From positions 1-64,000 of the forward strand of contig NZ_SMKH01000002.1 of assembly GCF_004348515.1 (NCBI RefSeq): DNA of 64,000 nucleotides, given 5' to 3'. Below are positions 25,945 through 61,594 of the stretch, piece after piece (position 1 is the stretch's first letter; each line of letters begins with the position of its first letter). The DNA is from Actinomadura sp. KC345. Lineage in GTDB: Bacteria; Actinomycetota; Actinomycetes; Streptosporangiales; Streptosporangiaceae. The position numbers and the translations under genes are program-made. A model generated the notes under the pieces. The model did not search any database. It was given only the letters and a program-made list of their open reading frames with translations, and had not been told where the DNA came from.

Positions 25945-28900
25945 TCAGCCCAGGCGGGACTCGATGGCCTCGATGATCCGCGGGCGCATCTCCGCGGCGC
26001 TGATGACGGCGTCCACGGAACCGACCTCGACCGCGCGCCGGATGTCGTGCACGCGGTCGAACTCCGCGGCCACCTCGCCGAGCTTCTCCGCGCGGACCGA
26101 CGCCCGGAGCTCGTCCAGCTCCGCGGTCAGCGCGGCGCGGTCGGCGCCGGTGGCCGGCGCGACGCGGGCCTCCAGGTCGCGCACGCGCGGGTCCGCCGCG
26201 GTGCGGGCGTCGACGTCGCGGGCGAACACCACCGCGGCGGCGGGGGCGCCGCCGAGCACCGACGCGAACGAGCCCTCCAGCGCGAGGACGGTCATGTACG
26301 GGTTCAGCGCCTTGGAGAACACCACGAACGCGCCGCCGTGGTACCGCGAGATCACGCAGAACACGATCGGCCCGCGGAAGTTCACGATCGCGCGCCCGAT
26401 CTCGGCGCCGTACTCCAGTTGGAGCTTGCGCATCGACTCGGGCGAGCCGTCGAAGCCCGACAGGTTCGCCAGCACCACCAGCGGCCGGTTGCCGCTGGCC
26501 GCGTTGATCGCCCGCGCGGCCTTCTTCGACGACTGCGGGAACAGCGTGCCCGCGGTGTAGGCGTCGGGGCCGTCGGTGGGCGGGAAGCCGCGCCGCGGCA
26601 GCGCCCGCGACTCGATGCCGAGCAGGCACACCGGCATGCCGCCGAGGTGGACGTCCTGCACCGCCGCGGTCTCCGCGTCGGCCATGCCCGCCCAGCGTTC
26701 CAGCACCGGGTGGTCCTGGTCGGACAGCGCCCGCATCACGGTCCGGATGTCGAACGGCTTCTTGCGGTCCGGGTTCGCCTCGGCGGAGAAGATCTCGCCG
26801 ACCGTGGTGAAGTCGCTGCCCTCCACGGCATGCGGGAAGGCCGAGATGTCGCGGTCGGCGGGGTCGCTCGTCCAGGCGCGGCGCGGTGCCTCCTCGCCGG
26901 GGGCAACGTACGTGTGGTCGTAGTGCGACATCAGCACGTCCCGCGCGGCGGCCAGGTTCGGGGCCCAGTACTGCGCCTGCCCGTTCGGGCCCATCACCCG
27001 GTCGTAGCCGCCGATGCCGAAGTTGTCCTCGGCCGACACGCCGCCGGAGAAGTCGAGCGACTGCTTGCCGGTCAGCACCATCGCCGACTCCGGCGTCATC
27101 ACCAGGATGCCCTTGGTGTGCATGAGCATCGTCGCCTCGGCGTTCCAGTACGGCTGCGCGCCGACGTTGATGCCCGCGACCACGATGTTGATCTCGCCGC
27201 CGTCCTGGGTGAACTCGACGATCCGCTTGAGCGCCGCGGCCACCCAGTCCATGTTCTCCGTGCCGGAGTCCATGGAGATCCGCGCGCCGGCCGACAGCGC
27301 GTACCACTCCACCGGCACCCGCATCCGCTCGGCCAGGTCGAGCGCCGCGATCACGCGGCGGCACTCCGGCTCCGACAGCGCGCCGAGCGCCTTGGTCGGG
27401 TCGCCGAGCAGCACGACCCGGGTGATGCCCAGCGGATGCCGCCGGGTCGTCGTGGTCACCACGCCCGCGACGATCGCCGCGGTGTTGCGTCCCGGCGGCC
27501 GCTCGACCGGCACCAGCGCGTGGCCGCCCGCCCCGTCCTCTTCGAGGTCGTGTTCGGCGAAGTCGCCGAGCATGCGGGTCAGCTCGTACGGGTAGACGGT
27601 GTTGCGGCTGCTCGCCCGCAGCACCTTCTGCCGGTAGCCGTCGAGCGGCTCGACCGGTGCGTCGGACGGCTCGCCGACCGTCAGCCTCGTCCCGCCGGCG
27701 GCGTCGAACGCGATGCGCACGGCGATCTTGCGCAGCTCGCCGGTCGCCGTGTCGCGCTGCCGCCCGATGATCAGCAGCTCCTCCAGCCCGGCGCCCGCGG
27801 TGGTCGGCACGACGCGCCTGGCCAGCGTCTCCAGCTCCGCGCGGGTCAGCTCGCTCGGCGGCCAGACGTAGACCACGATCCGGTTGGTGGGGAACCGGTT
27901 CTTCGGCGGCCGCAGCGTCCGCGCCCGGCGGATCGAGTCGACGCAGGTGGCGATCGTGTACTCGGCGGTCGGCAGGGTGAGCAGCCTGCCGTCGTGGTCG
28001 CGCAGCTCGGTCAGGTCGCGCACCTGCGCGAACGCGACGAGGCGGTCGTCGGACGGGTTCTCCCGCGCCACGCACCGGTAGAGGTAGACCTCCTCGTCCG
28101 AGGACGGCAGCCGGGTGAGGTCGAACCCGCTCAGCCGCTCCATCTGCATCCGCTGCGCGATGTACGGGTGCAGGCCGCGGATCAGCCGCTCCTCCGCCAT
28201 CCCGGTGGCCGACGGGCGGAACGTGAAGTGGTGGTGCATCACCGCGCCGTCCCGGGCCGCCACGGTGGCGGTGAGCCTGCGGATCTGCTCCGGCAGCGGG
28301 CGCGCGTTGACGGCCTCGTGCAGGGCGGCGGCCATCGCGTCGAAGTCCTCCGGCTGGTTCTCCCAGGCGAGGTAGATGTCGGCGTCGACGGCGTTCACGC
28401 CGTCCGCCAGCTCCGCGAGGCCCCGCAGCGCGCCGTCCAGCGCGTCGTAGCCGACCGCGGCGGACACCAGGTGCGACCCGGCGCGCTCGGCGACCACGAA
28501 CCCGCAGCCCGCGACCTCGCTCGTGCGGACGCCGGTGAGGCCCTTGTTGCCGTAGTACCGCCGGGTCAGCACCTCCAGCATGACCGCGTTGTCCCGGTCG
28601 TCGCGGATGAGTCGCTGGCCGAGCAGCCGCACCAGCGGCTCGGTGCTGCGCACCATCTCGGCGATGCGCTCCGCGCGGTCCGGCGCGTCCGGGTGGGCGT
28701 CCAGGTGGCGGAGGTGCCTGCGGACGTTGGCGTAGACGCGGGCCCGGTTGCGGCGCAGCAGCGGCTGGGCGTACCAGGCGAACACCACGCCCGCCGCGAG
28801 GTCGTAGACCACGGGGAAGCGGACCTGCGTCGCGGCGATCAGCCGCTCCAGCGCGAGACCGGCGGGCTCGCGCAGCTCCTCGTCCGGCGGCGGCTCCCGC

Positions 28901-31473: not shown

Positions 31474-31499
31474 CCGGCCGAACCCTCCTGTAACCGACA

Positions 31500-31513
31500 C
31501 TGTCCCGTGACAG
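31500..31513. promoter_or_regulatory. Inverted repeat upstream of carboxylase
   Basis: CTGTC (31500-31504) and GACAG (31509-31513) with spacer CCGT, 27 bases before the carboxylase start. A related TGTC-N3-GACA sits at 31581-31591. They may be operators of one of the neighbouring TetR proteins. Confidence 0.35.
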
Positions 31514-31665
31514 ACATTGCGCAGGCCGCGAGACGGCGGCCGACCGTGTTCACCTTTCCCTCTACCGGCCCGTAGCGCCATGTCGGTGACAGAGCACGCT
31601 GAGCGCCCCCAGTTGTGGGAAACCTGCAAAAGCCCCAGCCGCCCGCGCGCGGTGCGGGCGGGCGG

Positions 31666-46255: not shown

Positions 46256-46310
46256 GAGTGGCGGAACAACGAGCCGGAGGGTGCGCTTTGCCGGGCAGGG
46301 GTGGGCGGTC

Positions 46311-47771
46311 ATGACCGCCGAGGATCTCGGGCGCTACGACGTCATCGTGGTCGGCGCCGGCGTGGGCGGGCTGTGCGTGGCCATCGAGGCCGCGGCGGTC
46401 GGCGCGCGGGTGCTGGTCGCTGAGAAGACCGAGCGGGTCGGCGGGATGCTGCACATATCCAGCGGCGAGTTCAGCGGCGCGGGCACGCGCAGGCAGGCCG
46501 CGCGCGGCATCGAGGACGATCCCGAGCGCCACTGGCAGGAGGTCATGCGGCTGTCGCACGGACGGGCCGACCCCGACCTCACGTGGCGGACCGTGCGCGC
46601 CCAGGGCGAGACGGTCGACTGGCTGGACGGCCTCGGCTTCGACTTCCACCCCGAGACTCCCGGGTTGGTGCACGGGCACGAGGTCTACTCGGTGCCCCGC
46701 ACCTACTGGGGCGTGAACCAGGGCGACTCGCTGCTGCGGGTGCTGGAACGCGAGCTGGCGCGCTGGACTCCGGAGCAGGTGCGCGTGCTCACCGGCACCC
46801 GTGTCACCGGCGCCGTCCAGGACGGCGCCGGCCGGGTCGCCGGCATCACCGCGGTCCGCGACGGGACGCACGAGATCGCCGCGCACGCGGCCACCGTGGT
46901 GCTGGCCACCGGCGGATACGACGCGGAGCCCGGGCTGCGCAACCGCTTCCTGCCTCCGGGCTGCGAGGACGCGATGATCGCCTGCCTCGACCACGCCACC
47001 GGCGACGGGCTCAGGCTGGCCGAGGGACTGGGCGCCGCCGTCAGCGGCAACGGGATCTTCCTCCCCGTGATGGGGCTGATCCCCGATCCCGGACGGCCCG
47101 GCTTCGCCGTCGACTACCGGGAGGCGTTCATCGAGCTGGCGCCCGCGTACCGGACGCCCCACGAGATCTGGGTCAACCGCGCCGGCGAGCGATTCGTCCC
47201 CGAGGACGGGACGAGCCCCGAAAGGCGCGAGCGGGCCCTCCTTGAGCAGCCCGGCCTGGCGATGCACATCGTCTGGGACGAGGCGACCGCACGCGAGGCG
47301 GAACCGCTCATCAGGAACGGCGCGGGCGGCTGGACCCGCGAGCGGTTCCTGGCCGAGCAGGAGAGCGGCCGCTGGATCGTCACGGCACCGACACCGGAAG
47401 AGCTGGCGGTGCGGCTGGGCGTGGACCCCGCCGGACTGGCGGCGACCCTCCGGCGCTACAACGAGGCGGTCCGCGCCGGCCACGATCCCGACCAGGGCAG
47501 GACCACGCTGCCGATGACGATCGACTCGCCCCCGTACTACGGCATCACCTCCACCGCCGCCTCGCTGCTCAGCAGGGACGGGCTCCAGGTGACCGGCGAC
47601 CTGGCCGTGGTCGACCGCGACGGTCGTCCGATCCCGGGCCTGTACGCGGTGGGCGAGGTACTGGGCAACGACGTCTTCGCCGGAGACAACTACGTCGGCG
47701 GCATGAGCGTGACACCCGCGATGACACTGGGCCGCGCGCTCGGCCGCGCCCTGGCCGCGGAGGCTTCCTAG
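46311..47771 (+). CDS. FAD-dependent dehydrogenase (FAD_binding_2/fumarate reductase flavoprotein-like)
   Basis: 486-residue flavoprotein. Rossmann dinucleotide motif VIVVGAGVGGLCVAIEAAAVGARVLVAEK at the N-terminus, ATVVLATGGYD mid-way, and a C-terminal FAD-closing segment GLYAVGEVLGNDVFAGDNYVGGMSVTPAMTLGR. This is the family of fumarate reductase, tricarballylate dehydrogenase and 3-ketosteroid dehydrogenases. The capping domain (about 250-380) decides substrate and is not diagnostic to me. GTG 46281 would add ten residues, but ATG 46311 is adjacent to the fold. Possibly co-regulated with the VOC protein through the TTGAAACG motif. Confidence 0.83.
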   Translation: MTAEDLGRYDVIVVGAGVGGLCVAIEAAAVGARVLVAEKTERVGGMLHISSGEFSGAGTRRQAARGIEDDPERHWQEVMRLSHGRADPDLTWRTVRAQGETVDWLDGLGFDFHPETPGLVHGHEVYSVPRTYWGVNQGDSLLRVLERELARWTPEQVRVLTGTRVTGAVQDGAGRVAGITAVRDGTHEIAAHAATVVLATGGYDAEPGLRNRFLPPGCEDAMIACLDHATGDGLRLAEGLGAAVSGNGIFLPVMGLIPDPGRPGFAVDYREAFIELAPAYRTPHEIWVNRAGERFVPEDGTSPERRERALLEQPGLAMHIVWDEATAREAEPLIRNGAGGWTRERFLAEQESGRWIVTAPTPEELAVRLGVDPAGLAATLRRYNEAVRAGHDPDQGRTTLPMTIDSPPYYGITSTAASLLSRDGLQVTGDLAVVDRDGRPIPGLYAVGEVLGNDVFAGDNYVGGMSVTPAMTLGRALGRALAAEAS

Positions 47772-47908: not shown

Positions 47909-48841
47909 TCAGCGGCGGCGGTAGAACTCCAGCAGTTCCCCGTCGCGGCCCAGGAACGTCTGGACCGCGGCGGGGCCGTAGGGAGGAACGTCCAGCTCGA
48001 CCGGGTCGCAGACCGGGACCGCGCCGTGCGCGGCGAGCAGCCCCGCGGTCGCGGGCAGGTCGTCGGTCTCCAGCGAGACGGACAGGAGACCGGTGTTGGG
48101 CGGGACGGCGCGGTCGCGCTGGTCGCGGCCGGGGAAGCCGACGTACTGCGCGATCTCCACGCGGCCGTTCATCGTGCCGCCGGGCATGTACATGTTGATG
48201 TTGTGCAGCGAGGTGCCCGGCGGGAGGCGGAAGAACGCCTCCATGCCCTCGATCACCTGGTCGTACATCGGCTCGAAGCCGAGCGCCCCGTAGAAGCCCA
48301 TCGCCGCCCGCGCGTCACCGACGTGCACCGCGACCGTCTGAAGCTCGCTGGGAGAGCCGTCGTACTCGGCGAGCGGGGAGCCGTCCCGCGCTTCGAGTTC
48401 GAAGACGTCGAGGATGACGCCGTCGGGGTCGTACGACAGCGAGTCCCAGGCGGCCAGCTCCGGAGTCACCGTCCAGCGGGTGGGCTCCGACTTGGCCCTG
48501 CCTCCCGCCTCGCGTAGCCGGTGGACCGTGGCGCGGACGTCGTCCACCCGGATGTTGAGCGCGTAGTGGCCGTAGTCCTGGGCGCGCGAGTAGTCGCCCC
48601 AGATCCGGTCGCCCGGGGCATCGAAGCTCACAAGGCGCACCAGGCCGGTCGTGGCGCCCTCCGGTCCCAGCACGACCGTCCGGCCCGTCAGCCCTGCGGG
48701 CATGCGCCACGCACGCTCGATCTCCGGACCCCCGACCGCGACCTCCGGCCCGGCCACGTAGCCGAACACGTCTCGGTAGAACGCGACCGACCGCTCCAGA
48801 TCCGACACCGCCACCGTCGCCACCCGCAGCTCACTGATCAA
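47909..48841 (-). CDS. Two-domain VOC (glyoxalase/extradiol dioxygenase-like) protein
   Basis: 310-residue protein with two vicinal-oxygen-chelate modules: ELRVATVAVSDLERSVAFYRDVFGY (start of module 1) and ELQTVAVHVGDARAAMGFYGALGFEP (start of module 2 at about 165). GHYALNIRVDD and the late GELLEFY supply candidate metal ligands (His, Glu). Two-module VOC proteins include extradiol dioxygenases, HPPD-like enzymes and lyases; I cannot choose. It starts at TTG 48841 behind GAGGG. A long palindrome just upstream suggests tight regulation. Confidence 0.78.
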   Translation of the reverse strand: MISELRVATVAVSDLERSVAFYRDVFGYVAGPEVAVGGPEIERAWRMPAGLTGRTVVLGPEGATTGLVRLVSFDAPGDRIWGDYSRAQDYGHYALNIRVDDVRATVHRLREAGGRAKSEPTRWTVTPELAAWDSLSYDPDGVILDVFELEARDGSPLAEYDGSPSELQTVAVHVGDARAAMGFYGALGFEPMYDQVIEGMEAFFRLPPGTSLHNINMYMPGGTMNGRVEIAQYVGFPGRDQRDRAVPPNTGLLSVSLETDDLPATAGLLAAHGAVPVCDPVELDVPPYGPAAVQTFLGRDGELLEFYRRR

Positions 48842-49523: not shown

Positions 49524-49536
49524 TCGCTAAGTCTAA
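49524..49536. promoter_or_regulatory. Shared 13-mer TCGCTAAGTCTAA, copy 1
   Basis: TCGCTAAGTCTAA occurs here and at 56465-56477. This copy is 190 bases ahead of the MFS/CoA-transferase/PadR genes, the other inside the thiolase promoter. It may be the PadR operator that links the two gene sets. Confidence 0.45.
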
Positions 49537-49595
49537 AGTTCCCAGACTCACTCGCGGGCAATCTGCTGGCATGCAGGAACTTTTGGGCTTGAGTC

Positions 49596-49625
49596 TTGAC
49601 GTGTCCCAGTAAACATCGTTCTATT
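49596..49625 (+). promoter_or_regulatory. Promoter of MFS/CoA-transferase genes
   Basis: TTGACG (49596-49601) and TCTATT (49620-49625) at 18-base spacing in an AT-rich stretch about 100 bases ahead of the transporter ATG. CTATTAGT at 49621-49628 is an inverse match to ACTAATAG at 56384-56391. Confidence 0.5.
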
Positions 49626-49727
49626 AGTCACAGGCAACTTGTGATCTAGCCCACGCCAGATGGCCCGGCGACGACGCTGACGGGTCCCGACTCCACCCCC
49701 ACCCCACATCGGAAAGTCGGTACGGCC

Positions 49728-51227
49728 ATGCCCGGAACGAGATCCTCCAGATCCGCCGTTCTCCTGATCGCGGTGCTCGTGCTCGCCGAGACGGTGTCGG
49801 CGTTCGAGACGACGATGTCCGTCCAGCTGCTCTACGCCCAACTCCCCTTCTTCGGGTCCGACATCAACAAGCTCACCTGGATCGTGACCGCGTACATGCT
49901 GGTCGCGGCGGCCGCCACGGGGGTGTGCGGTCGCCTGGGCGACCAGTTCGGCCGCGCGCGGGTGCTCAACATCGTGCTGCTGATCTCGGCGGCGGGCTCC
50001 GCGCTCAGCGCGATCGCCCCCAACCTGGAGATCCTCATCGTCGGCCGGGGCCTGCAAGGGGTGTCCGGCGCCGTGCTGCCCCTGGTGATCGGGCTGGCGC
50101 GCGAGATCCTGCCGAAGGAGAAGGTCACCACCGGGATCGCCGTCGTCAGCGCGTCGGCGCTCATCGCCGGAGCGTCGGGCATGCTCGTGTCCGGGTTCAT
50201 CCTGGATCACTTCAACTGGCGCTTCATCTTCTGGACCGCGGTGATCCTGGCCGCGCTCGCGATGGCCGGGATCCGTGCCGTCATCCCCAACTCCAAGGCC
50301 GCGGACGCGGACCCCGGGAGGGTCGACTACCTGGGCGCCGCGCTGTTCTCGGTGGCCATCGGGACGACGCTCTACGGCGTCACCAAGTCGAGCGAGTGGA
50401 CGTGGGGCGACTCCCGGACGCTGGGCTTCCTGGGCGTCGGGCTTGTCCTGCTCGCCCTGTGGACGGTCTGGGAGCTGCGCGTGGAGCACCCGATGATGGA
50501 GGTCCGGCGGTTCGTCAATCCCAAGTTCGCGATCGGGATGCTCGCCACGGTGATCATCGCCTTCGGGGTCTTCGGGCTCAGCCAGGTCATGCCGACGGCC
50601 GTCCTGCGCACCCCGACGGAGATCCCCGTGCCGGGCGGCGCCCCCATCGAGCTGCCGGTCGGGCTGGGACTGACGGCGACGATGACCGGGCTGGTGGGCG
50701 GCCTCGGCGCGCTCATCGGGTTCGCCATCTCCCCGCTGCCCGGCCGGATCTCCCGCCGCTACGGCGCGGCCCGGACGATCATGATCGGGTCCGTGGTCGC
50801 CGTGGGGGCCTTCTGGTCGGTCATGTCCCTCCACACGTCGCTGGGCGGCTTCATCGCCTTCACGATCATCAGCTCGATCGCCGTCACGTTCTGCTACGGC
50901 GCCCTGCCGACGCTCATCGCCGAGTGCGTCCCGCCGGAGGAGACCAGCGCGGCCGTCGGCATGCAGGCCGTGGTGCGGACGACGTTCCAGGGCGTCGCCG
51001 CGTCCTTCTCGGGGGTCTTCCTGGCACGGGGCGAGATCATGGTCGGTGATCACGCCTTCCTGAGCGAGCAGGGCCTGGAGACCCTCGCCGTCGCGGCCAT
51101 CGTCGCCTCCGTCATCGGGTTCGTGCTCGCGGTCGCGGCGTCGCGCTACCGCGACTCCATGCTCAACGACCGGGACGACGGAGCCGTCCCGGCCGCCGGG
51201 CCCAAGGCGGCCGTCCAGATCGACTGA
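49728..51227 (+). CDS. MFS transporter, DHA2-like 14-TM family
   Basis: 499-residue, 14-helix major facilitator. Helix 1 carries AETVSAFETTMSVQLLYAQL instead of the usual D-x-TIVNVAL; GRLGDQFGRARV is motif A and GRGLQGVSGAVLPLVIGLAR motif C. The periplasmic insert TPTEIPVPGGAPIELPVGLG is unusual. Context (CoA-transferase, PadR, ligase) suggests uptake or efflux of the catabolised acid rather than drug export. First gene of a plus-strand set; the CoA-transferase follows 48 bases on. Confidence 0.82.
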   Translation: MPGTRSSRSAVLLIAVLVLAETVSAFETTMSVQLLYAQLPFFGSDINKLTWIVTAYMLVAAAATGVCGRLGDQFGRARVLNIVLLISAAGSALSAIAPNLEILIVGRGLQGVSGAVLPLVIGLAREILPKEKVTTGIAVVSASALIAGASGMLVSGFILDHFNWRFIFWTAVILAALAMAGIRAVIPNSKAADADPGRVDYLGAALFSVAIGTTLYGVTKSSEWTWGDSRTLGFLGVGLVLLALWTVWELRVEHPMMEVRRFVNPKFAIGMLATVIIAFGVFGLSQVMPTAVLRTPTEIPVPGGAPIELPVGLGLTATMTGLVGGLGALIGFAISPLPGRISRRYGAARTIMIGSVVAVGAFWSVMSLHTSLGGFIAFTIISSIAVTFCYGALPTLIAECVPPEETSAAVGMQAVVRTTFQGVAASFSGVFLARGEIMVGDHAFLSEQGLETLAVAAIVASVIGFVLAVAASRYRDSMLNDRDDGAVPAAGPKAAVQID

Positions 51228-51275
51228 GAACCACGATCGACGCTGCACCGATCCGCACCACATCGAGAGGAACCG

Positions 51276-53675
51276 ATGGACAGCACCCTCCCGCTCGCCG
51301 ATGTCCGTGTCCTGGAGTGCACCGGGGGCATCCCGGGCGCGTACTGCGGAAAGATGCTCGTCGACGCCGGTGCGCAGGTGGTGAAGGTCGAGCCCCCGGA
51401 CGGTGACCCGCTGCGCTCCTGGAGCGCGTCGGGGGATCTCGCCCTCGGGCCGGGCGAGCACGCGCCCCTGTTCCAGTTCCTCGCGGCGGGCAAGCGGTCG
51501 GTCGTCTCGGACGACGCCGGGTCGCCCGCCGTCCACGACCTGGTCCGGGGCGCGGACATCGTGATCGTCGACGGGACGGGGGGCTGGGACCTGGCGCGGA
51601 TGCGGTCCCTCTCGGCGGGTGACGAGAGCGTCGTCATCAGCATCACCCCGTTCGGCACCGAAGGCCCCTACGTCGACCAGGGGGTGCAGGCCAACGAGTT
51701 CATCCTCCAGGCGCTGTGCGGGTCGACCGGGAGCCGCGGCTGGCCCGGTGAGGAGCCGCTGCAGGCGGGCGGCCGGACCGGCGAGTGGGTGGCGGGGGCG
51801 TACGCCGCCTTCGCCGCCGCCGCCGGGATCCGCCGGCTCCGGCGGACCGGCCGGGGTGACGTCTTCGACGTCTCGATCTACGAGGCGATGATCGTCACCA
51901 TGGGCGGTCTCGGCGCCGTCGCCGCGGGCGTCCTCGGCGAGGACGCCCCGGCGGCGGCCAGGAGCCTGGAGATGCCGTCGATCGTGCCCACCGCGGACGG
52001 CCTCGTCGGCTTCTGCACGATCACCGCGCAGCAGTTCGCGGACTTCCTCGTCCTGATCGACCGCGCGGACCTCCTGGACGACGCCGACCTCGCGTCGTTC
52101 GCGGGCCGGACTCGGCGGCGCGACGAGTTCCTGGAGATGGTCCACGGCTGGGCCTCCACCCGCACCACCGCCGAGATCGTGGAGCTGGCGGCCGCGCTGC
52201 GGATCCCGGTCGCCCCGATCGGGACGCCGGAGACGCTGGCCGAGATCGACCAGTTCCGGGAACGCGGCGTCTTCGTCAAGAACGCGCTGGGCCACCTCCA
52301 GCCGCGGGTCCCGTACCGGACCAGCGCGTTCGAGGCGTCCCCGCCGGGAACGGTGCCGGACCCCGGCCGGGACGCCGGCGAGGTGCGCTGGCCGGCGCGC
52401 GAACGTCCGGCAGGCGAACGTCCGGCACGGCAGGGCACACAGCCGGACCGGCGGCCGCTGGACGGGGTGCGGGTCGCCGACTTCACCGCCTTCTGGGCCG
52501 GTCCGACCGCCACCCAGCTGCTGGCCGCGTTCGGCGCCGACGTGGTCAAGATCGAGGGGCTGCGCCGTCCCGACGGCATGCGGTTCTCCGGTGGACGGCC
52601 GCCGAGCGTCGACCAGTGGTGGGAATGGGGGTCGGTGTTCCTCGCCAGCAACAACGACAAGCGCGGGATCAGCCTGGAGCTGAGCGATCCGCGGGCGCGG
52701 GACGTGGCCCTGAAGATCATCGGTGGCAGCGACCTGGTCGTCGAGAACTTCTCGCCGCGCGTGATGGCGAACTTCGGGCTGGAGTGGCCGGACGTCGCGG
52801 CGGCCAACCCCCGGGCGTGCATGGTGCGGATGCCCGCGTTCGGGCTCGACGGCCCCTGGCGCGACCGGGTCGGGTTCGCCCAGACGATGGAGCAGGCGAG
52901 CGGCATGGCCTGGATGACCGGGCACCCGGACGGCCCGCCGATCATCCCGCGCGGCGTCTGCGACCCGGTCGCCGGCATCCACGCGGCCTTCGCGGCCGTG
53001 GTCGCCCTGGAGAGCCGCGATGCCACCGGCCAGGGGGTGCACATCGAGGGGACCATGGTCGAGGCCGCGCTCAACGTGGCGGCCGAGGCGCTACTGGAGC
53101 ACTCCGTCCGCGGCGTCACCCTGCGCCGCGACGGCAACCGCGGGCCGGGCGCCTCGCCCCAGGGCGTCTACCGGACGGCCGGAGCCGACGAATGGGCGGC
53201 GATCGCCGTGACGGACGACGCGCAATGGCCCGCGCTCGCCGCCGTCATCGGCCGCCCCGACCTGGCGGACGACCGCGACCTGGCGACGCGGTCCGGCCGC
53301 CGGGCCCGCGCGGCGGAGATCGACACGGCCATCGCGTCCTGGGCGGCGGGCGTCGACGTCGAGGCCGCCGTCGCGGCGCTCCGCGCGGCGGGCGTCCCGT
53401 CGGCCAGGGTGACGCCGCCGAGCGACCTGCTGGCCGACGAGCATCTGCGCGCTCGCGGGTTCTGGGAGAACGTCCGGCATCCGGTGGCGGGCGAGTTCCG
53501 CTCGACGGGGCTGCCGTTCGGGTCCCGGACCGTGGCCTCCGGGTGGGTACGGTCCGGGGCGCCGCTCTACGGCCAGCACAACCACGAGGTCCTGGCGGAG
53601 ATCGGCCTGGGCCGGAGCGAGATCGAGGCGCTGGAGGAGGACGGGGTCATCGGCTCCCGGCCCGCCGGGCTCTGA
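51276..53675 (+). CDS. Tandem-fused class III CoA-transferase (CaiB/BaiF)
   Basis: 799-residue protein made of two complete family III CoA-transferase domains (about 8-385 and 400-790), joined by an Arg/Pro-rich linker. The C-terminal half has DFTAFWAGPTATQLLAAFGA and catalytic D563 (GVCDPVAGIHAAF). At the equivalent place the N-terminal half has E170 (GRTGEWVAGAYAAF) rather than Asp. Class III enzymes form interlocked dimers moving CoA between acids, so this may be a built-in heterodimer with one active site. Likely activates the pathway's starting acid. GAGAGG lies before ATG 51276. Confidence 0.87.
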   Translation: MDSTLPLADVRVLECTGGIPGAYCGKMLVDAGAQVVKVEPPDGDPLRSWSASGDLALGPGEHAPLFQFLAAGKRSVVSDDAGSPAVHDLVRGADIVIVDGTGGWDLARMRSLSAGDESVVISITPFGTEGPYVDQGVQANEFILQALCGSTGSRGWPGEEPLQAGGRTGEWVAGAYAAFAAAAGIRRLRRTGRGDVFDVSIYEAMIVTMGGLGAVAAGVLGEDAPAAARSLEMPSIVPTADGLVGFCTITAQQFADFLVLIDRADLLDDADLASFAGRTRRRDEFLEMVHGWASTRTTAEIVELAAALRIPVAPIGTPETLAEIDQFRERGVFVKNALGHLQPRVPYRTSAFEASPPGTVPDPGRDAGEVRWPARERPAGERPARQGTQPDRRPLDGVRVADFTAFWAGPTATQLLAAFGADVVKIEGLRRPDGMRFSGGRPPSVDQWWEWGSVFLASNNDKRGISLELSDPRARDVALKIIGGSDLVVENFSPRVMANFGLEWPDVAAANPRACMVRMPAFGLDGPWRDRVGFAQTMEQASGMAWMTGHPDGPPIIPRGVCDPVAGIHAAFAAVVALESRDATGQGVHIEGTMVEAALNVAAEALLEHSVRGVTLRRDGNRGPGASPQGVYRTAGADEWAAIAVTDDAQWPALAAVIGRPDLADDRDLATRSGRRARAAEIDTAIASWAAGVDVEAAVAALRAAGVPSARVTPPSDLLADEHLRARGFWENVRHPVAGEFRSTGLPFGSRTVASGWVRSGAPLYGQHNHEVLAEIGLGRSEIEALEEDGVIGSRPAGL

Positions 53676-53744
53676 CGGGCCTGCGGCGTCCCGGCGAGGA
53701 CTACGATCGCTGGCAGGACGACGGCGATCGGCGGGAATGACGAC

Positions 53745-54455
53745 GTGGGACTCGACGAGGCATCGCGGGAGGCGGACGAGGCCGCCGCGCGGGAGGGCGC
53801 CGCCGATCCCGGCTACCCGGATCTGCCGACGACGGCGTACCTCGTCCTCGGCATGCTGATCGTCAACGACGAGTCGCTCACCGCGGGCGAGATCAAGGTG
53901 CGCTCCCAGTACACGGTCGGCCACTTCTACTGGGCCCCGGCCGTCAGCCACATCCGGCGGGAGCTGACACGCCTGATCGAGCACGACATGGCGGCCGAGC
54001 GCACGATCCACGTCGGCAAGCGCAAGATGACGGTCTACGAGTCGACCCCGCGGGGCGAGCGTGCGCTGCGCGCGTGGGCCGAGGCCCTTCCGGGGGACGA
54101 GCCGGTGATGATCAAGCATCCGCTGATGCTCAAGATCTGGCTCGCGGGGGACACCGAACCGGCCGTGGTCCTGGAGGCCATCGACCGCTACCTGGAGACC
54201 GTCCAGAAGTCGATCGACGAGCTGATGTGGGCGCAGGGCAGGAGCCGGGAACTCGGGCTGCTGGAGGAGATGAGGTCGAGGTACCCGCTCCAGGTGGCGA
54301 CCTACACCCTGCGCTCGCTGTACGCCGAGATGGCCAACGTCCGGCAGCTCCGCGACGAGATCGAATGGAACCTCGGAGACGCCTACCAGCGGCACGCCGA
54401 CCACCCGAAGACGGCCATACGCCGCAGGGTGCGGCCGGAGGCCGGGGACGACTGA
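53745..54455 (+). CDS. PadR-family regulator
   Basis: 236-residue PadR regulator. Winged helix about 28-100: TTAYLVLGMLIVNDESLTAG and YWAPAVSHIRRELTRLIEHDM, a wing with RKMTVYESTPRGERALRAW; then a C-terminal coiled-coil-rich dimer domain (Vir-like, about 125-205: EAIDRYLETVQKSIDELMWAQ). PadR proteins classically sense phenolic acids and repress their catabolic genes. GTG 53745, 69 bases after the CoA-transferase stop. Probably controls both this set and the divergent ligase/thiolase genes. Confidence 0.85.
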   Translation: MGLDEASREADEAAAREGAADPGYPDLPTTAYLVLGMLIVNDESLTAGEIKVRSQYTVGHFYWAPAVSHIRRELTRLIEHDMAAERTIHVGKRKMTVYESTPRGERALRAWAEALPGDEPVMIKHPLMLKIWLAGDTEPAVVLEAIDRYLETVQKSIDELMWAQGRSRELGLLEEMRSRYPLQVATYTLRSLYAEMANVRQLRDEIEWNLGDAYQRHADHPKTAIRRRVRPEAGDD

Positions 54456-54488
54456 CCTCCGGCCGCGTTCCGGCCGCCGAGGGGCGGG

Positions 54489-54803
54489 TCAGTCGCTGGC
54501 GGGGAGCGGCTTGGCGTCCTTGACCACGAGCGGGGTGTCGCCGTCCGACAGCGAGCCCGCACCCGGGCTGGTCACCAGGACTTCGAAGGAATCGTCGTCC
54601 GGGTGGGTGTAGCGCTTGCCCAGCAAGGAGCCCTCGTCGAACGGACTGTGCGGTTCCCCCACGGTCGCGCGGTCGGCCGACAGGGACATCGGAACTCCGC
54701 CGCACCGCAGGTCCAGGCCCGGCGGCCCCGGCCGGACCACGATGACGCCGGTGCCGCACACCTGGCTGTGCAGGCGTGTCCCGGGCTTGATGATGTCGCT
54801 CAA
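54489..54803 (-). CDS. Small conserved-type protein of unknown function
   Basis: 104-residue protein with two cysteines in SQVCGTGVIVVRPGPPGLDLRCGGVPM, which could bind a metal or form a redox pair, followed by an acidic tail. No signal peptide. I have a sense that similar short proteins accompany acyl-CoA ligase genes in actinomycetes, but I cannot name a family. TTG 54803 has AGGAGA about seven bases upstream and lies 18 bases after the ligase stop on the same strand, so they are co-transcribed. Confidence 0.65.
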   Translation of the reverse strand: MSDIIKPGTRLHSQVCGTGVIVVRPGPPGLDLRCGGVPMSLSADRATVGEPHSPFDEGSLLGKRYTHPDDDSFEVLVTSPGAGSLSDGDTPLVVKDAKPLPASD

Positions 54804-54821
54804 CTGCTTCTCCTGTCTCGA

Positions 54822-56348
54822 TCAGGCGTGTGTGGGGGAGTGGAGCCCGGCGACGATCTCTCGGCGCAGGAGCTTGCCCGTCTGGGTGTAGGGGAGCTCT
54901 TCCCTGAACACGACCTCGTCAGGCGTGCGGGAGCCGCGCAGCCGCGACCGGACGAAGGCGCGCAGCTCCGCGGCGAGGTCGTCACCGGCCCCTCCGTCGG
55001 GGACCACGACCGCCACCAGCCGTTCCCCCCAATGGGGATCGGCCGCTCCGACCACGGCGGCCTCACGGACCAGGTCATGGGCGAGCAGGACGTCCTCGAT
55101 CTCGGCCGGCGCGATGTTCTCCCCGCCGCGGATGATCGTGTCGTCCGCGCGTCCCTCCACGTAGAGGTAGCCGTCCCCGTCGAGGCGCGCGAGGTCGCGG
55201 GTCGGGAACCAGCCGCCGGCGTCCAGGACCGAGCCGAGCCCGGTGTACTCGCCGGAGACCTGCGGCCCCCGGACCCACAGCTCGCCGACCGTGCCGCCGG
55301 GCACCGCGCGGCCGTCCTCGTCCCGGATCTCCGCCTCGACGCCGGGGACGACGCGGCCGACCGAGGCGAGGCGGTGGGTCTCCCCCGAGGCCATCGCCTG
55401 GCGGTGGTCCTCGGGGCCGAGGACCGCGATCGTCGAGCTGGTCTCGGTGAGGCCGTAGGCGTTGACGAAACCGGTCGCGGGGAACGCCTCCAGCGCCCGC
55501 GCGAGCACCGGGAGCGGCATCCGCGCACCTCCGTAGGCGAGCGTCGAGAGACCGGGGCAGTCCGCCGGGCGGTCCCCGAGATGCTCGACGATGCGGGCCA
55601 GCATGGTCGGCACCACCATCGCGTGGCTCACCCGCCGGTCGCGGACGACGCCGAGCCACCCCTCCGGGGTGAAGTCGGTCAGGTAGGCGGTCTTGCGGCC
55701 GGAGTAGGCGTTGGTGAGCACGGCCCCGATCCCGGCGATGTGGTACGGCGGGACGCTGAGCAGCGCGCACTCGTCCTCCGCCGCCGCCGCGCCGAACTCG
55801 ACGGTTCCGAGGACGTAGGAGAGCAGGTTCGAGTGCCGCAGGACGGCGCACTTCGGCGCCGCCGTCGTGCCGCTCGTGAACAGCAGGAGCGCGGGGCTCT
55901 CCTCGGACACCTCCGCGGGCCCCGCGTCTGACGCCGCCTCCGACGCGTCCCCGGCTCCCGGCGCCGCGACGATGTCGAACCACTCGCGGGTCGTCATCGA
56001 CGCGACCACGTTGCCGGGCGGTCCGACGCGCTGGGACGGGTCGGTGACGAGCACGGGCGCGTCCAGGCGGGCGATCAGTTCGCGCAGGGCAGGCTCGGAC
56101 AGGCGGTAGTTGAGCGGAGCGAACGGGACTCCGGCGCCGGCCGCGGCGAACAGCAGCGCGGGAACCGCGGGGGAGTTGGCGCCGACGAACGCCAGCGTGC
56201 GGGCGCCCCGGCGTCTCAGCAGCGCGCTTCCGGCGTCGGCCAGCCCGGCGAGGCCGCCGAAGGTCGTCGGCTCGCCGGCGGCCGGCAGCAGGGCGGCGCG
56301 GTCGGCGCCCGCCTGCGCGGCCATGTCCAGGATCAGGCGGATGGTCAT
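54822..56348 (-). CDS. AMP-forming acyl-CoA ligase
   Basis: 508-residue ANL-superfamily enzyme. A3/P-loop LLFTSGTTAAPK (about 155-166), A5 NAYGLTETSS, A7 GWFPTRDLARLD, hinge GRADDTIIRGGENIAPAEIE and A10 lysine in PYTQTGKLLRRE are all intact. It converts a carboxylic acid, ATP and CoA to acyl-CoA; family precedents include fatty, benzoic and cyclohexane acids. ATG 56348 has GGGAG six bases upstream. Divergent from the thiolase operon; the shared 145-bp region carries promoters and repeats of CTAATAG. Confidence 0.9.
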   Translation of the reverse strand: MTIRLILDMAAQAGADRAALLPAAGEPTTFGGLAGLADAGSALLRRRGARTLAFVGANSPAVPALLFAAAGAGVPFAPLNYRLSEPALRELIARLDAPVLVTDPSQRVGPPGNVVASMTTREWFDIVAAPGAGDASEAASDAGPAEVSEESPALLLFTSGTTAAPKCAVLRHSNLLSYVLGTVEFGAAAAEDECALLSVPPYHIAGIGAVLTNAYSGRKTAYLTDFTPEGWLGVVRDRRVSHAMVVPTMLARIVEHLGDRPADCPGLSTLAYGGARMPLPVLARALEAFPATGFVNAYGLTETSSTIAVLGPEDHRQAMASGETHRLASVGRVVPGVEAEIRDEDGRAVPGGTVGELWVRGPQVSGEYTGLGSVLDAGGWFPTRDLARLDGDGYLYVEGRADDTIIRGGENIAPAEIEDVLLAHDLVREAAVVGAADPHWGERLVAVVVPDGGAGDDLAAELRAFVRSRLRGSRTPDEVVFREELPYTQTGKLLRREIVAGLHSPTHA

Positions 56349-56383
56349 GCGAACTCCCGGGCTCGTCCCACCAGCTTTCTTAA

Positions 56384-56392
56384 ACTAATAGT
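56384..56392. promoter_or_regulatory. ACTAATAGT motif in divergent promoter
   Basis: ACTAATAGT lies 36 bases before the ligase start; CTAATAGT recurs at 56474-56481 in the thiolase promoter and inversely at 49621-49628. On the minus strand it may supply the ligase -10 (ACTATT) or a regulator half site. Confidence 0.35.
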
Positions 56393-56449
56393 CCCTCATG
56401 ATGGTCACACAGCGATCTGCAAAGCGCCAGTTCTCCGGACAATCGACCC

Positions 56450-56478
56450 TTGACAGTCCGGAAATCGCTAAGTCTAAT
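56450..56478 (+). promoter_or_regulatory. Strong promoter of thiolase operon, with shared 13-mer
   Basis: TTGACA (56450-56455) and TCTAAT (56473-56478) lie exactly 17 bases apart, a near-consensus vegetative promoter. The 13-mer TCGCTAAGTCTAA (56465-56477) overlaps its -10 box, so a repressor bound there would block transcription. Confidence 0.7.
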
Positions 56479-56532
56479 AGTGCGTAGCCGTTAGTGATCT
56501 ACGGCACATGGCTCGACCTTCAAGGAGACCGA

Positions 56533-57696
56533 GTGAGGGCATCGAACCGCCGGGCCGTCATCGCCGGGGTGCACAACACCCGCCAGGCGCGCCGCCTGGA
56601 GGAGGAGACCTCCCGCAGCCTCATGGTCAAGGCGCTCCTCGGCGCGCTGGACGACGCCGGGCTGGACCTGTCCGACGTCGACGGGATCAGCGCCATGGAC
56701 GACAGCACGTCCCTGATCTACGACCTCGGTGTCGGGCCGGCCTGGCAGGGCCACGACTTCGGCGCCGGCATGTTCGCCGAGGCCGCGTCCGCCGTCGAGA
56801 AGGGCTACGCCGACGTCGTCGTGCTGGTCTCCGCGCAGGCCGGCAGCTACACCGACCGCGCGGCGACCGCGCCGTGGACCCGCCCGGAGAACGAGTTCGT
56901 CGCCCCCTGGGGCATGTTCACCGCCGCCGAGTTCGCGCTGATCGCGCGCCGCCACATGGAGGTCTTCGGGACGACGCGGGAGCAGATGTCGCGGGTCGCG
57001 GCCACGATCCGCAACAACGGGGACCGCAACCCGGAGGCCGTCTACCACGGGCGGGGCCCCTTCAAGCCCGAGGACATCACCGCCTCCCGCCCCATCGCCG
57101 AGCCCTTCCACCTCCTCGACTGCGCCATGACGTCGGAGGGCGGCTGCGCGGCCGTCGTCACCACGGCCGAGCGCGCCCGGTCCCTGCGCCGCGACCCGGT
57201 CCACGTGCTCGGCGCCGGGGTCGACTTCTTCGGCCCGTCCTACCAGTACCCGCCGAGCTGGGACCTGCGCGGGCGGCGCGACGCGCCGTCCAACGGGCAG
57301 GCCGGACGCCGGGCCGGCGACCTCGCGTTCCGCCAGGCCGGCATCGGCCGCGACGACGTGGACGTCCTGGAGCTCTACGACCCCTTCTCGTTCGAAATCA
57401 TCCGCCAGCTGGAGGCCCTGCGGTTCTGCCCCGAGGGGGAGGGCGGGCCGTTCGTCGAGGACGGCCGCATCGAGCCGGGCGGCAGCCACCCGATCACCAC
57501 CGACGGCGGCCTGATGTCGTTCAGCCACGCGGGCGCGAACCCCCAGATGATGCAGCGCGTGATCCGCGGGGTCCAGCAGGTGCGCGGCGACGCCGGGCCC
57601 CTCCAGGTCCCGGACGCGCACGTCGCCCTGTGCACCACCGGCGGAGCCGGCGCCCTGTTCACCGGCGTGATCCTCCTGGGAGACGAGCTGCCATGA
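56533..57696 (+). CDS. Thiolase-like protein (lipid-transfer/aldolase type)
   Basis: 387-residue thiolase-superfamily protein. HDFGAGMFAEAASAVEKGYADVVVLVSAQ and LLDCAMTSEGGCAAVVTT are core helices; GGLMSFSHAGANPQMMQ holds the conserved His, and ALCTTGGAGAL the late Cys. The usual N-terminal nucleophilic Cys position reads DDSTS, without Cys. That points to an Ltp2-like retro-aldolase rather than a true thiolase; those act with a DUF35 partner, which follows here. GTG 56533 has AAGGAG five bases upstream; the frame is open to 56494. Its stop overlaps the DUF35 start. Confidence 0.82.
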   Translation: MRASNRRAVIAGVHNTRQARRLEEETSRSLMVKALLGALDDAGLDLSDVDGISAMDDSTSLIYDLGVGPAWQGHDFGAGMFAEAASAVEKGYADVVVLVSAQAGSYTDRAATAPWTRPENEFVAPWGMFTAAEFALIARRHMEVFGTTREQMSRVAATIRNNGDRNPEAVYHGRGPFKPEDITASRPIAEPFHLLDCAMTSEGGCAAVVTTAERARSLRRDPVHVLGAGVDFFGPSYQYPPSWDLRGRRDAPSNGQAGRRAGDLAFRQAGIGRDDVDVLELYDPFSFEIIRQLEALRFCPEGEGGPFVEDGRIEPGGSHPITTDGGLMSFSHAGANPQMMQRVIRGVQQVRGDAGPLQVPDAHVALCTTGGAGALFTGVILLGDELP

Positions 57697-58112
57697 CGAC
57701 CCCGCTGCGGGCCCAGACCCGCGACCTTCCGCACGCCGTCCCGAGCGAGGTGACCCGCCCCTTCTGGGACGGGTGCGCGCGGGGAGAGCTGCTGTTCCAG
57801 CGCTGCGAGCGGTGCGAGGCCATCACCTTCCCGCCTGGCGAGCACTGCCGCGGCTGCCTGGCCCGGGGCCAGGTGTGGGAGGCGAGCGCCGGGCGCGGCG
57901 TCCTCTACAGCTGGACCGTCGTCCACCGGCCGGTCACGCCCGCCTTCGACCCGCCCTACGCCGCCGCGATCGTGACCCTCGACGAGGGCTACCAGATGCT
58001 GACCAACATCGTCGACGCCGCGCCGGACGACCTGCGCGCCGAGCTGCCGGTCCAGGTGTCGTTCCGCCGGACCGGAAACGATCTCTGGCTCCCCTACTTC
58101 GTCCCCGCCTGA
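57693..58112 (+). CDS. DUF35 OB-fold/zinc-ribbon protein, thiolase partner
   Basis: 139-residue protein: rubredoxin-like zinc ribbon C38-x2-C41, C52-x2-C55 (FQRCERCEAITFPPGEHC), then an OB-fold (about 62-135; GRGVLYSWTVVHRPVTPAFD, PYAAAIVTLDEG). Such proteins form complexes with thiolase-like enzymes and help present acyl-CoA, as in the Ltp2-ChsH2 aldolase of steroid side-chain loss. ATG 57693 lies within the thiolase stop (ATGA), fitting a fixed stoichiometric complex. Confidence 0.9.
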   Translation: MTTPLRAQTRDLPHAVPSEVTRPFWDGCARGELLFQRCERCEAITFPPGEHCRGCLARGQVWEASAGRGVLYSWTVVHRPVTPAFDPPYAAAIVTLDEGYQMLTNIVDAAPDDLRAELPVQVSFRRTGNDLWLPYFVPA

Positions 58113-58142
58113 CCCGGGAAAGACCGAGCGAAGGATTCCCCC

Positions 58143-59489
58143 ATGCACAAGGACGATCTGATCCTCATCAGCGTCGACGACCACATCGCCGAGCCCGCCG
58201 ACATGTTCGACGCCCACGTCCCGGACCGGTACCGGGACCGCGCGCCGCGCGTCATCATCGAACCGGACGGCGTCCAGCAGTGGTACTACGGCGATCTCCG
58301 GGGCCGGAACATGGGGCTGAACGCGGTCGCCGGGAAGCCGCGCGAGATGTACAACATCGACGCCAGCAGCTACGACGAGATGCGTCCGGGCTGCTTCAAC
58401 GTCGACGAGCGGGTCAGGGACATGAACGCCGGCGGCCAGCTCGCTGGGCTGAACTTCCCGAACTGGACCGGGTTCTCCGGCCAGGTCCTCAACCAGGGCC
58501 CGGACCGCGAGACCAACCTGGTGATGATCAAGGCCTACAACGACTGGCACATCGACGAGTGGTGCGGCGCGTACCCCGGCCGGTTCATCCCCTGCGGGAT
58601 CCTTCCGCTGTTCGACGTCCAGGAGGCCGCCAAGGAGATCCGGCGCCTGGCGGCCAAGGGGTGCCACGCGGTGACGTTCTCGGAGAACCCCGAGGCGCTG
58701 AACATGCCCAGCATCCACACCAGGTACTGGTATCCGCTGTTCGAGGCGGCCAGCGAATGCAAGACCGTCCTGTGCACGCACATCGGGTCGTCCTCGCGGG
58801 CGCCGATGTTCTCCAGCGACGCCCCGGCGAGCGTGGCCATGACCGGGTCCTCGATCATGAGCGCGTACACGCTGCTCGAACTGATGTGGGCCGAGTTCTG
58901 GGGCGACTTCCCCGACCTGAGGTTCTCGCTGACCGAGGGCGACATCGGCTGGATCCCGTACTTCCTCTGGCGGGCCGAGCACGTGCAGAACCGGCACTCG
59001 GGCTGGACGAAGGCGACGTTCCCGCGCGGCTACGACGGCCCGTCCGACGTGTTCAGGAAGCACATCCACACGTGCTTCATCGCCGACAAGGTCGGCCCGA
59101 AGGTCCTCGACTGGTTCGACACCGACATGGTCTGCTGGGAGTCGGACTACCCGCACTCCGACAGCAACTGGCCGTTCGCGCCCGAGGACGTCATCGAGAC
59201 CCTCGGCCATCTCGACGACGCGCTGATCGACAAGATCACCCACGAGAACGCGATGGCGGCGTACTCCTTCGACCCGTTCGCGCACGTCCCGAAGGAGAAC
59301 GCCCGCGCCGGGCACCTGCGCTCCCAGGCGACGGACGTCGACGTCGTCACGCACGTGGGACGCGAGGCGAGCCAGCGCGACCTGGACGCGTGGGCGCGGA
59401 TGACGAGCTTCGCCACCGAGCACCCGGCGAAGGTCACCGCGAACGCCGACATCTCCGGGCGCGCCGAGAAGCTCGGCGAGAACCTCTGA
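58143..59489 (+). CDS. Amidohydrolase_2-family metal-dependent hydrolase/decarboxylase
   Basis: 448-residue TIM-barrel protein of the amidohydrolase 2 family (ACMSD/gamma-resorcylate decarboxylase relatives). N-terminal metal motif SVDDHIAEPADMF has D-x-H-like residues; CTHIGSSS supplies a strand-5 His and CWESDYPHSDSNWP the catalytic Asp with His. Family members hydrolyse cyclic esters or decarboxylate aromatic or heterocyclic acids. It follows the DUF35 gene by 30 bases with AAGGA before ATG 58143. The exact reaction is not predictable. Confidence 0.85.
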   Translation: MHKDDLILISVDDHIAEPADMFDAHVPDRYRDRAPRVIIEPDGVQQWYYGDLRGRNMGLNAVAGKPREMYNIDASSYDEMRPGCFNVDERVRDMNAGGQLAGLNFPNWTGFSGQVLNQGPDRETNLVMIKAYNDWHIDEWCGAYPGRFIPCGILPLFDVQEAAKEIRRLAAKGCHAVTFSENPEALNMPSIHTRYWYPLFEAASECKTVLCTHIGSSSRAPMFSSDAPASVAMTGSSIMSAYTLLELMWAEFWGDFPDLRFSLTEGDIGWIPYFLWRAEHVQNRHSGWTKATFPRGYDGPSDVFRKHIHTCFIADKVGPKVLDWFDTDMVCWESDYPHSDSNWPFAPEDVIETLGHLDDALIDKITHENAMAAYSFDPFAHVPKENARAGHLRSQATDVDVVTHVGREASQRDLDAWARMTSFATEHPAKVTANADISGRAEKLGENL

Positions 59490-59511
59490 GACCGCGGGGA
59501 GCAGGTTGACG

Positions 59512-59832
59512 ATGGGCATGAGCCTGTGCGTGCCGCCGCGGCCGGGTGAGCTCTGCGCCCCCATCCGGCTGCGGCTGCCCGGCGAGCACTCGACGCAGCA
59601 GCTGACGTCCCGGCACCGCGTGACCGGGATCGAGGCGGACGGCGGGACGGTCGTCGTCCGGGTGGAGATCACCGATCCGCAGACGTCCCGCCCGATCGAC
59701 GTCCGCTTCGACGTGGTCCCGCCGGGCGGGCGGCCGGCCGCGCGGTCCGTCCTGCTGGGCACGGCCGACCTGCCCACCGGCCCGGCCGAGGTGTACGGCA
59801 CCTACCTCGGCGTCGTCGCCGACGAGAACTAG
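59512..59832 (+). CDS. Small beta-rich protein of unknown function
   Basis: 106-residue cytosolic protein of alternating beta strands (HRVTGIEADGGTVVVRVEIT, then RPIDVRFDVVPPGG) and a Gly-rich end. No catalytic motif is evident. Last gene of the thiolase-DUF35-amidohydrolase operon, 22 bases after the amidohydrolase stop, so it may be a subunit or accessory of one of these enzymes. ATG 59512 follows GGGGAGCAGG; ATG 59518 is an alternative. Family not recognised. Confidence 0.6.
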   Translation: MGMSLCVPPRPGELCAPIRLRLPGEHSTQQLTSRHRVTGIEADGGTVVVRVEITDPQTSRPIDVRFDVVPPGGRPAARSVLLGTADLPTGPAEVYGTYLGVVADEN

Positions 59833-60703: not shown

Positions 60704-61594
60704 ATGCATGGAGACCGCCGCACGCCCGTGACCGTCATCGGGCTGGGCTCGATGGGAACGGCGCTGGCCGAGACCTTCGTCAGCGCCGGACATCCGACCG
60801 CGGTCTGGAACAGGACCGCCGCCAAAGCCGCGCCTCTCGTCGCCAAAGGCGCCCGCCACCTGCCGTCCATCGAGGACGCGGTGAACGCGAGCCCCCTGGT
60901 CATCACCTGCCTGACCACCTTCGAGGACACCCGGACGGCGTTGGAGCCCGCCGTCGCCTCGCTGCACGGACGGGCGCTCGTCACCCTCAACAGCGGCTCC
61001 CCGGCCGGCGCCCGCGAGACGGACGCCTGGGCCACCGGCCACGGCGCCCGCTTCCTCGCCGGGGCGGTCAAGAACGTGCCTTCGGCCGTGGGGGCGCCGG
61101 ACACCCTCCTCTACTACAGCGGCGACCGGACGGTCTTCGAGGAGTTCGCGTCGACGCTGAGGGTGCTGGGCGGCGACACCGTCCACCTGGGCGACGAGAC
61201 GGACCTCGCCGCCCTCTACGAGATGGCGGTGGGCGCCACACTGCTGCCCGCACTGGTCGGCTTCTTCCAGGGGGCGGCGGCCGTCCAGGCGCGAGGGCTG
61301 GAGGTGACCTCCATGGTCCGGTTCTCCGGCAAGTGGCTGGACATGATCAAGTCTCTGCTGCCCGTCTACGCCGAGGAGATCGACAGCGGCGACTACAGCG
61401 ACGCCGCCTCCTCGGTGAACCTCTTCCTCAGCGGAGCCGCCCACGACGCGGACCTCACCAGGGAGACGAACGTCGACACCGCATGGCTCACCCCCATGCA
61501 CGACCTGGTGAAGCGGGCGGCCGAGATGGGGTACGGCGAGCACAGCATCGCCGCTCTCACCGAGGTCCTCAGGAAGCCGGAACGAGCGGCATGA
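60704..61594 (+). CDS. Imine-reductase-like NADPH-dependent oxidoreductase
   Basis: 296-residue beta-hydroxyacid-dehydrogenase-superfamily enzyme closest in style to imine reductases. Rossmann motif VIGLGSMGTALAETFVSAGH, then TAVWNRT whose Arg favours NADPH; TLNSGSPAGAR is the substrate loop; the long helix YEMAVGATLLPALVGFFQGAA carries the catalytic-region residues, and a helical dimer domain follows. IREDs reduce cyclic imines or do reductive amination; 3-hydroxyisobutyrate dehydrogenase is the alternative, but its catalytic Lys motif (GNxGxGxxxK) is not seen. TGGAG lies eight bases before ATG 60704. Confidence 0.8.
   Translation: MHGDRRTPVTVIGLGSMGTALAETFVSAGHPTAVWNRTAAKAAPLVAKGARHLPSIEDAVNASPLVITCLTTFEDTRTALEPAVASLHGRALVTLNSGSPAGARETDAWATGHGARFLAGAVKNVPSAVGAPDTLLYYSGDRTVFEEFASTLRVLGGDTVHLGDETDLAALYEMAVGATLLPALVGFFQGAAAVQARGLEVTSMVRFSGKWLDMIKSLLPVYAEEIDSGDYSDAASSVNLFLSGAAHDADLTRETNVDTAWLTPMHDLVKRAAEMGYGEHSIAALTEVLRKPERAA

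Follow-up and report, generated by a model that had tools for sequence, protein, structure and literature searches.

The window analysed here is a stretch of 64,000 nucleotides from Actinomadura sp. KC345 (contig NZ_SMKH01000002.1 of GCF_004348515.1, an assembly of 8.27 Mb in 600 contigs), and it carries a cluster of nine genes that seem to serve the breakdown of a carboxylic acid as its coenzyme A (CoA) ester (Table 1). All nine open frames listed in a preliminary description of this DNA are present at positions 49728-59832. A simple gene call based on codon-position guanine-cytosine content recovers every one of them except the DUF35 gene, and the gene families were confirmed with Pfam and NCBIfam; the exception is the PadR-type regulator, which has no significant Pfam match and was assigned by profile. 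The spacing of the genes suggests three transcription units: one for the major facilitator superfamily (MFS) transporter, the CoA-transferase and PadR, a second, on the minus strand, for the acyl-CoA ligase and a protein of 104 amino acids (aa), and a third for a thiolase-fold protein, a DUF35 protein, an amidohydrolase-fold enzyme and a 106-aa protein. The thiolase and DUF35 frames overlap and, judging from homologues, the true start of the thiolase probably lies near position 56542.

Table 1. Genes and operator-like sites of the cluster (positions in the window)
Feature	Position	Strand	Remarks
Operator-like palindrome TTCTATTAGTC	49619..49629	none	Upstream of the MFS gene
MFS transporter, DHA2 (EmrB/QacA-like) type	49728..51227	+	Open frame, Pfam/NCBIfam
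Fused family-III CoA-transferase	51276..53675	+	BbsE-like N-half, apparently inert (Glu170); BbsF-like C-half with the predicted catalytic Asp563
PadR-family regulator	53745..54455	+	Presumed to repress the cluster; matches 5x11, 1yg2 and 6jyi by profile
104-aa protein	54489..54803	-	Family usually accompanying this type of CoA ligase
AMP-forming acyl-CoA ligase	54822..56348	-	
Operator-like palindrome AACTAATAGTC	56383..56393	none	Upstream of the ligase gene
Operator-like palindrome GTCTAATAGTG	56472..56482	none	Upstream of the thiolase gene
Thiolase-fold protein without nucleophilic Cys	56494..57696	+	Candidate retro-aldolase
DUF35 / ChsH2-type partner	57693..58112	+	Zinc ribbon and OB-fold
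Amidohydrolase-fold enzyme	58143..59489	+	Candidate dinuclear oxygenase; D12 H14 H213 E265 D335 H338, second sphere D340
106-aa orphan protein	59512..59832	+	Predicted all-beta; cluster-restricted

With the amidohydrolase as a query and one genome per species, 79 loci were collected, among which those with an amidohydrolase at least 75% identical (n=27) were taken as orthologous and those below 55% (n=26) as paralogue loci. The orthologous loci are spread over five genera, with 2 in Actinomadura, 22 in mycobacteria (not independent of each other) and one each in Streptosporangium, Blastococcus and Pseudofrankia; the closest are those of Actinomadura sp. 7K507 and A. darangshiensis. The genes had been described as one unit, and the synteny search bears this out. 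All 27 orthologous loci contain the genes for the fused CoA-transferase, the thiolase and DUF35, and the PadR gene and the 106-aa gene are each found in 26 of them, while these same genes are missing from the paralogue loci, save for a single DUF35 gene. In mycobacteria the core forms a compact run (oxygenase, CoA-transferase, 106-aa protein, thiolase, DUF35, PadR), from which the MFS, ligase and 104-aa genes are missing; the latter three occur in the Actinomadura unit and, more diverged, in Streptosporangium. As both the order and the orientation of the genes differ between the genera, the linkage exceeds what a merely inherited chromosome segment would give.

The three transcription units are also connected by an operator-like palindrome, (G)ACTA-N-TAGT(C), that lies upstream of each of them (MFS, ligase and thiolase). 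The count of CTANTAGT was matched in none of 100 shuffles. Its core, CTANTAG, occurs 57 times in the 226 kb of orthologous cluster sequence (400-bp margins included) against 2 times in 342 kb of sequence flanking these clusters, and 5 times in the 454 kb of the 26 paralogue loci. In most mycobacterial loci the oxygenase gene is preceded by a pair of copies, at distances of about 30 and 120-220 bp, and the Streptosporangium version carries a variant palindrome only. Genome-wide, WCTAWTAGTS is found 3 times in the 8.27-Mb genome of the source organism and 4 times in a 9.4-Mb relative, every one inside the cluster, and ACTAWTAGTC is confined to the cluster in a 5.6-Mb mycobacterial-type genome; since the pattern was fitted to the sites of the source organism's own genome, it is the other two genomes that provide fair tests. 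The operator-like site GACTANTAGTC is cluster-specific in the genomes searched, and it had no match in anything searched.

The protein that binds these palindromes is presumably PadR, which is proposed for this role because it is the sole regulator conserved in the unit. Its profile matches solved PadR proteins (5x11, E 8.9e-08; 6jyi, E 3.6e-06; also 1yg2) over the winged-helix part, and a short palindromic operator is presumed here as for that family; as a single sequence it falls below Pfam reporting, in which it differs from 5x11 and 6jyi. The earlier label of a phenolic-acid-type regulator stands as far as the family is concerned, and means no more than that. That the cluster constitutes one regulon appears almost certain. 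A chance assembly of unrelated neighbours could be imagined on account of the variable gene order and of the MFS, ligase and 104-aa genes that mycobacterial loci miss. It is refuted by the synteny counts over the 27 loci together with the shared site: co-occurrence has been conserved despite the reshuffling, and all three promoters share an operator-like site that is unique to them in the genome, leaving this explanation a practically negligible probability.

The unit has a patchy distribution, as few genomes of the source organism's order carry it. When the 106-aa protein alone was used as a query against 346 actinobacterial genomes, one clear match besides the window was obtained, in a mycobacterial-type genome in which the genes for the CoA-transferase, thiolase, DUF35 and oxygenase adjoin it. 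Two loci from metagenome-assembled genomes of Acidimicrobiia look like distant versions, one with the oxygenase, CoA-transferase, thiolase and DUF35 (L087) and one with the oxygenase and CoA-transferase (L088). A phage collection gave no match, and a plasmid collection no close copy (best below 60%). Some megaplasmids do carry a related oxygenase gene, near a CoA-transferase of two-domain length in Massilia (NZ_CP019037.1, L150) and Sphingopyxis (NZ_CP013345.1, L151), and with CoA-transferase, OB-fold and thiolase genes in Rhodococcus DK17 (NZ_CP118327.1, L152), which suggests a wider association of this oxygenase with CoA-transferases.

The amidohydrolase-fold enzyme had been announced as a hydrolase or decarboxylase, a reading that is not supported; it is most likely an O2-dependent hydroxylase, in view of a full set of dinuclear oxygenase metal ligands. 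The enzyme has a PF04909 domain (Pfam E 2.7e-24). Among solved structures, DitZ (8uyr, 38% identity) comes nearest, followed by PtmU3 (26%) and other dinuclear oxygenases, with the family's decarboxylases and hydrolases ranking lower. In AibH2, six residues (Asp25, His27, His211, Glu265, Asp337 and His340) bind the metals, and Asp342 belongs to the second sphere (PMC7782822, PMC12141560). At these positions the window protein has Asp12, His14, His213, Glu265, Asp335, His338 and Asp340. DitZ is identical to it at all seven, and PtmU3 has Glu313 at the last one, a residue reported as iron-binding (PMC7782822). Among 94 homologues, 92 have all seven residues and the remaining two are truncated, with the rest kept. 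With the amidohydrolase-related dinuclear oxygenases (ARO) PtmU3 (6omp), AibH2, SfbO (8sm6) and DitZ, the window enzyme thus shares both the fold and the ligand set D-x-H, H, E, D-x-x-H-x-(D/E); it differs from these four in its setting, next to an aldolase, a CoA-transferase and PadR. No account of the function of DitZ was found in the literature searched.

It is therefore highly probable that the enzyme is a dinuclear oxygenase. If it were instead an ordinary mononuclear enzyme, a hydrolase or decarboxylase that attacks a ring or a carboxyl group once the aldol has been cleaved, it would belong to the type of most characterised non-oxygenase PF04909 enzymes (PMC10811679), and the lack of a reductase in the unit would speak for this reading. 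We consider it improbable, since every homologue read shares with the oxygenases Glu265 in place of the usual His, along with His338 and Asp340, and the top solved matches are of the oxygenase type. Moreover, the mononuclear-type PF04909 paralogues of the same genome have a His at the Glu265 position and no counterpart of His338, a contrast based on the plus-strand loci. No Rieske domain is present among the proteins of the unit, in which the enzyme differs from the aib system; a Rieske neighbour serves as a search aid in PMC10811679 and is not a defining ARO trait. A search of the genome with the operator pattern for a regulon member elsewhere that might act as an electron donor found none.

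Further genes of this kind are found elsewhere. Contig C166 of the same genome (L030, L144, L164, L168) has two more oxygenase-type PF04909 genes and also encodes a ligase with 61% identity to the one in the window, as well as a paralogue of the 104-aa protein. At three loci (L064:16310-17539, L072:3446-4888 and L073:8433-9875), a second PF04909 gene with oxygenase-type motifs lies near the first oxygenase, which recalls the AibH1-AibH2 pair, but here both genes retain the ligand motifs.

In the thiolase-fold protein, the nucleophile region is devoid of Cys, while Tyr295, His345 and Cys380 are kept; two distant members have a Cys a few residues from the nucleophile position. Thiolysis based on a nucleophilic Cys is therefore unlikely, and retro-aldol cleavage is the best remaining reaction. 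It is our best guess, as it was in the preliminary description, which spoke of an Ltp2-like aldolase pair. The nearest solved relatives are the uncharacterised 4u4e and then Ltp2, an aldolase (PMC11321319), with a tyrosine that aligns with Tyr295. In the steroid side-chain aldolase Ltp2-ChsH2(DUF35) (6ok1), as in Sal/Shy, a Cys-less thiolase fold likewise stands next to a DUF35 protein. The window protein differs from Ltp2 in being closer to 4u4e and in having no hydratase partner: no MaoC-type protein is encoded in the unit, and none is conserved among the loci checked; for this reason the pair is not classified as an Ltp2 system, only as possibly working like one.

As previously described, two enzymes could form the acyl-CoA, an AMP-forming ligase and a fused family-III CoA-transferase. 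The latter is made up of two family-III halves, of which the N-terminal one resembles BbsE and the C-terminal one BbsF; Glu170 and Asp563 are found in 30 of 30 homologues, so that a catalytic Asp is present in the C-half only. This combination of an inert E-like and an active F-like part is reminiscent of BbsEF (9fn0), but the protein is a single chain, occurs in aerobic actinobacteria and is encoded beside an oxygenase. Nor does the cluster share the bss/bbs gene context of BbsEF, and no glycyl-radical enzyme was seen; the transferase is not classified as BbsEF. The acid is probably loaded onto CoA by the fused transferase in all genera or, in Actinomadura and Streptosporangium, by the ligase at the expense of ATP.

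From these elements a pathway can be proposed, in which the cluster would be one PadR-controlled regulon for the O2-dependent breakdown of a carboxylic acid via its CoA ester. The ligase or the BbsEF-like transferase would put the acid on CoA, and the transferase could draw its CoA from the acyl-CoA that a later step sets free. The oxygenase, a PtmU3-type enzyme with a dinuclear Fe2 or Mn/Fe centre, would hydroxylate the resulting acyl-CoA, with the beta carbon as the most likely position; PtmU3 is reported to be a beta-hydroxylase that accepts CoA-linked substrates (PMC7782822). In a retro-aldol reaction, the Cys-less thiolase-fold enzyme and DUF35 would then split the beta-hydroxyacyl-CoA, yielding an acyl-CoA of shorter chain together with a ketone or an aldehyde. 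On its GACTA-N-TAGTC operators, PadR would keep the three units silent as long as neither the substrate nor its CoA ester is present. Since the core of the loci encodes neither a dehydrogenase nor a hydratase, the beta-hydroxyl group must come from another source, which fits a direct beta-hydroxylation feeding the aldolase. For this order of events as a whole, we consider the chances to be about even.

Several observations weigh against it. The unit has no electron-transfer protein (Rieske, ferredoxin or reductase), and the cluster is without partners such as AibG and AibF, which accompany AibH1H2. The thiolase-fold protein has His345 at a position where Ltp2 has a Tyr; the Ltp2 tyrosines at the positions of Tyr295 and His345 are, we presume, catalytic. 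The DHA2-type MFS transporter resembles efflux pumps, and no particular substrate finds support, the pathway being deduced from sequence. In addition, many mycobacterial loci (for example L048:5948-9810) have a long acyl-CoA dehydrogenase (fusion) and a second thiolase-DUF35 pair just upstream of the oxygenase, so that dehydrogenation may take place there. It could thus be imagined that, within the same regulon, the oxygenase hydroxylates or dealkylates another position, or acts on the free acid, as AibH2 and SfbO do with small molecules that are not CoA esters (PMC10401708, PMC10811679), and that dehydrogenases and hydratases whose genes lie outside the unit make the beta-hydroxyacyl-CoA, as happens when steroid side chains are broken down. 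This seems rather unlikely, since the Actinomadura, Streptosporangium and Blastococcus loci lack the extra upstream genes, and since the mycobacterial operator-like sites lie between these genes and the oxygenase and not before the extra genes. Furthermore, the unit encodes two enzymes for loading an acid onto CoA, and CoA esters are what PtmU3 works on (PMC7782822).

An exporter-like MFS protein would also be in accordance with a cluster that makes, tailors, or detoxifies and exports a natural product instead of feeding on an acid, and platensimycin biosynthesis employs the PtmU3 hydroxylase on CoA-linked diterpenoids (PMC7782822). Yet no terpene, polyketide or peptide synthase is found around the unit among the window genes checked, and the core is present in 22 mycobacteria without the MFS gene, which makes such a role very improbable. 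The proposed pathway can also be extended to an aerobic catabolic strategy not described before, in which acids would bypass dehydrogenation and hydration. Direct beta-hydroxylation of CoA esters, cleavage by a Cys-less aldolase and recycling of CoA by a single-chain transferase would be combined in it, and the oxygenase would depend on the 106-aa protein as its partner, for example as an effector or an electron-transfer adaptor. This version is tentative and has, in our opinion, less than an even chance.

Both small proteins mentioned in the preliminary description exist, but they differ in kind. The 106-aa protein, by its conservation, is part of the core cluster and restricted to it; its C-terminus hardly varies, two cysteines are invariant, and the predicted model is all-beta (pLDDT 82). 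It matches no family searched, and the model gave neither a Foldseek match at E<=0.001 nor a VIA-align match at Z>=5, which does not prove a new fold. Its role as an effector or adaptor is a guess. The 104-aa protein is found mostly with the ligase or with other oxygenases. Its family is wider: in 10 of 13 further loci it adjoins a ligase about 50% identical to that of the window, and elsewhere it adjoins oxygenase paralogues of the same fold. For its model (pLDDT 88) there was no significant Foldseek match, again without proof of a new fold. A weak Desulfoferrod_N match raised the idea of a desulforedoxin-like electron donor, which was rejected because the cysteines are not conserved.

Some neighbouring genes deserve mention. 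A fumarate-reductase-like flavin adenine dinucleotide (FAD) enzyme (46281-47771, plus strand) and a two-domain VOC/dioxygenase-like protein (47909-48841, minus strand) adjoin the cluster; no homologue of either lies near the cluster in related loci, except that two distant loci show a weak match to part of the VOC protein. On the other side lies a reductive-aminase-like NAD(P) enzyme (60704-61594, plus strand), whose linkage to the cluster is not conserved. Farther away, positions 25945-31629 (minus strand) encode a biotin-dependent carboxylase as a single chain of 1894 aa, with biotin carboxylase, ACC_central, biotinyl and carboxyltransferase domains, a fusion that is unusual for a bacterium.

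Each of the enzymes is of a known kind, and no description of the assembled set, or of a pathway with exactly these genes, was found in the literature searched, most subscription papers lying outside it; the preliminary description had likewise known of none. The PF04909 family comprises more than 100,000 "amidohydrolases", very few of which are known dinuclear oxygenases, with natural substrates that are mostly unknown (PMC10811679). The cluster would give one dinuclear-type oxygenase a context, with CoA loading before it and aldol cleavage after it. A dedicated operator may offer a route to the inducer, and the 106-aa orphan is a testable candidate partner of the oxygenase. In this way, a catabolic role of such oxygenases would become directly testable in a soil bacterium.

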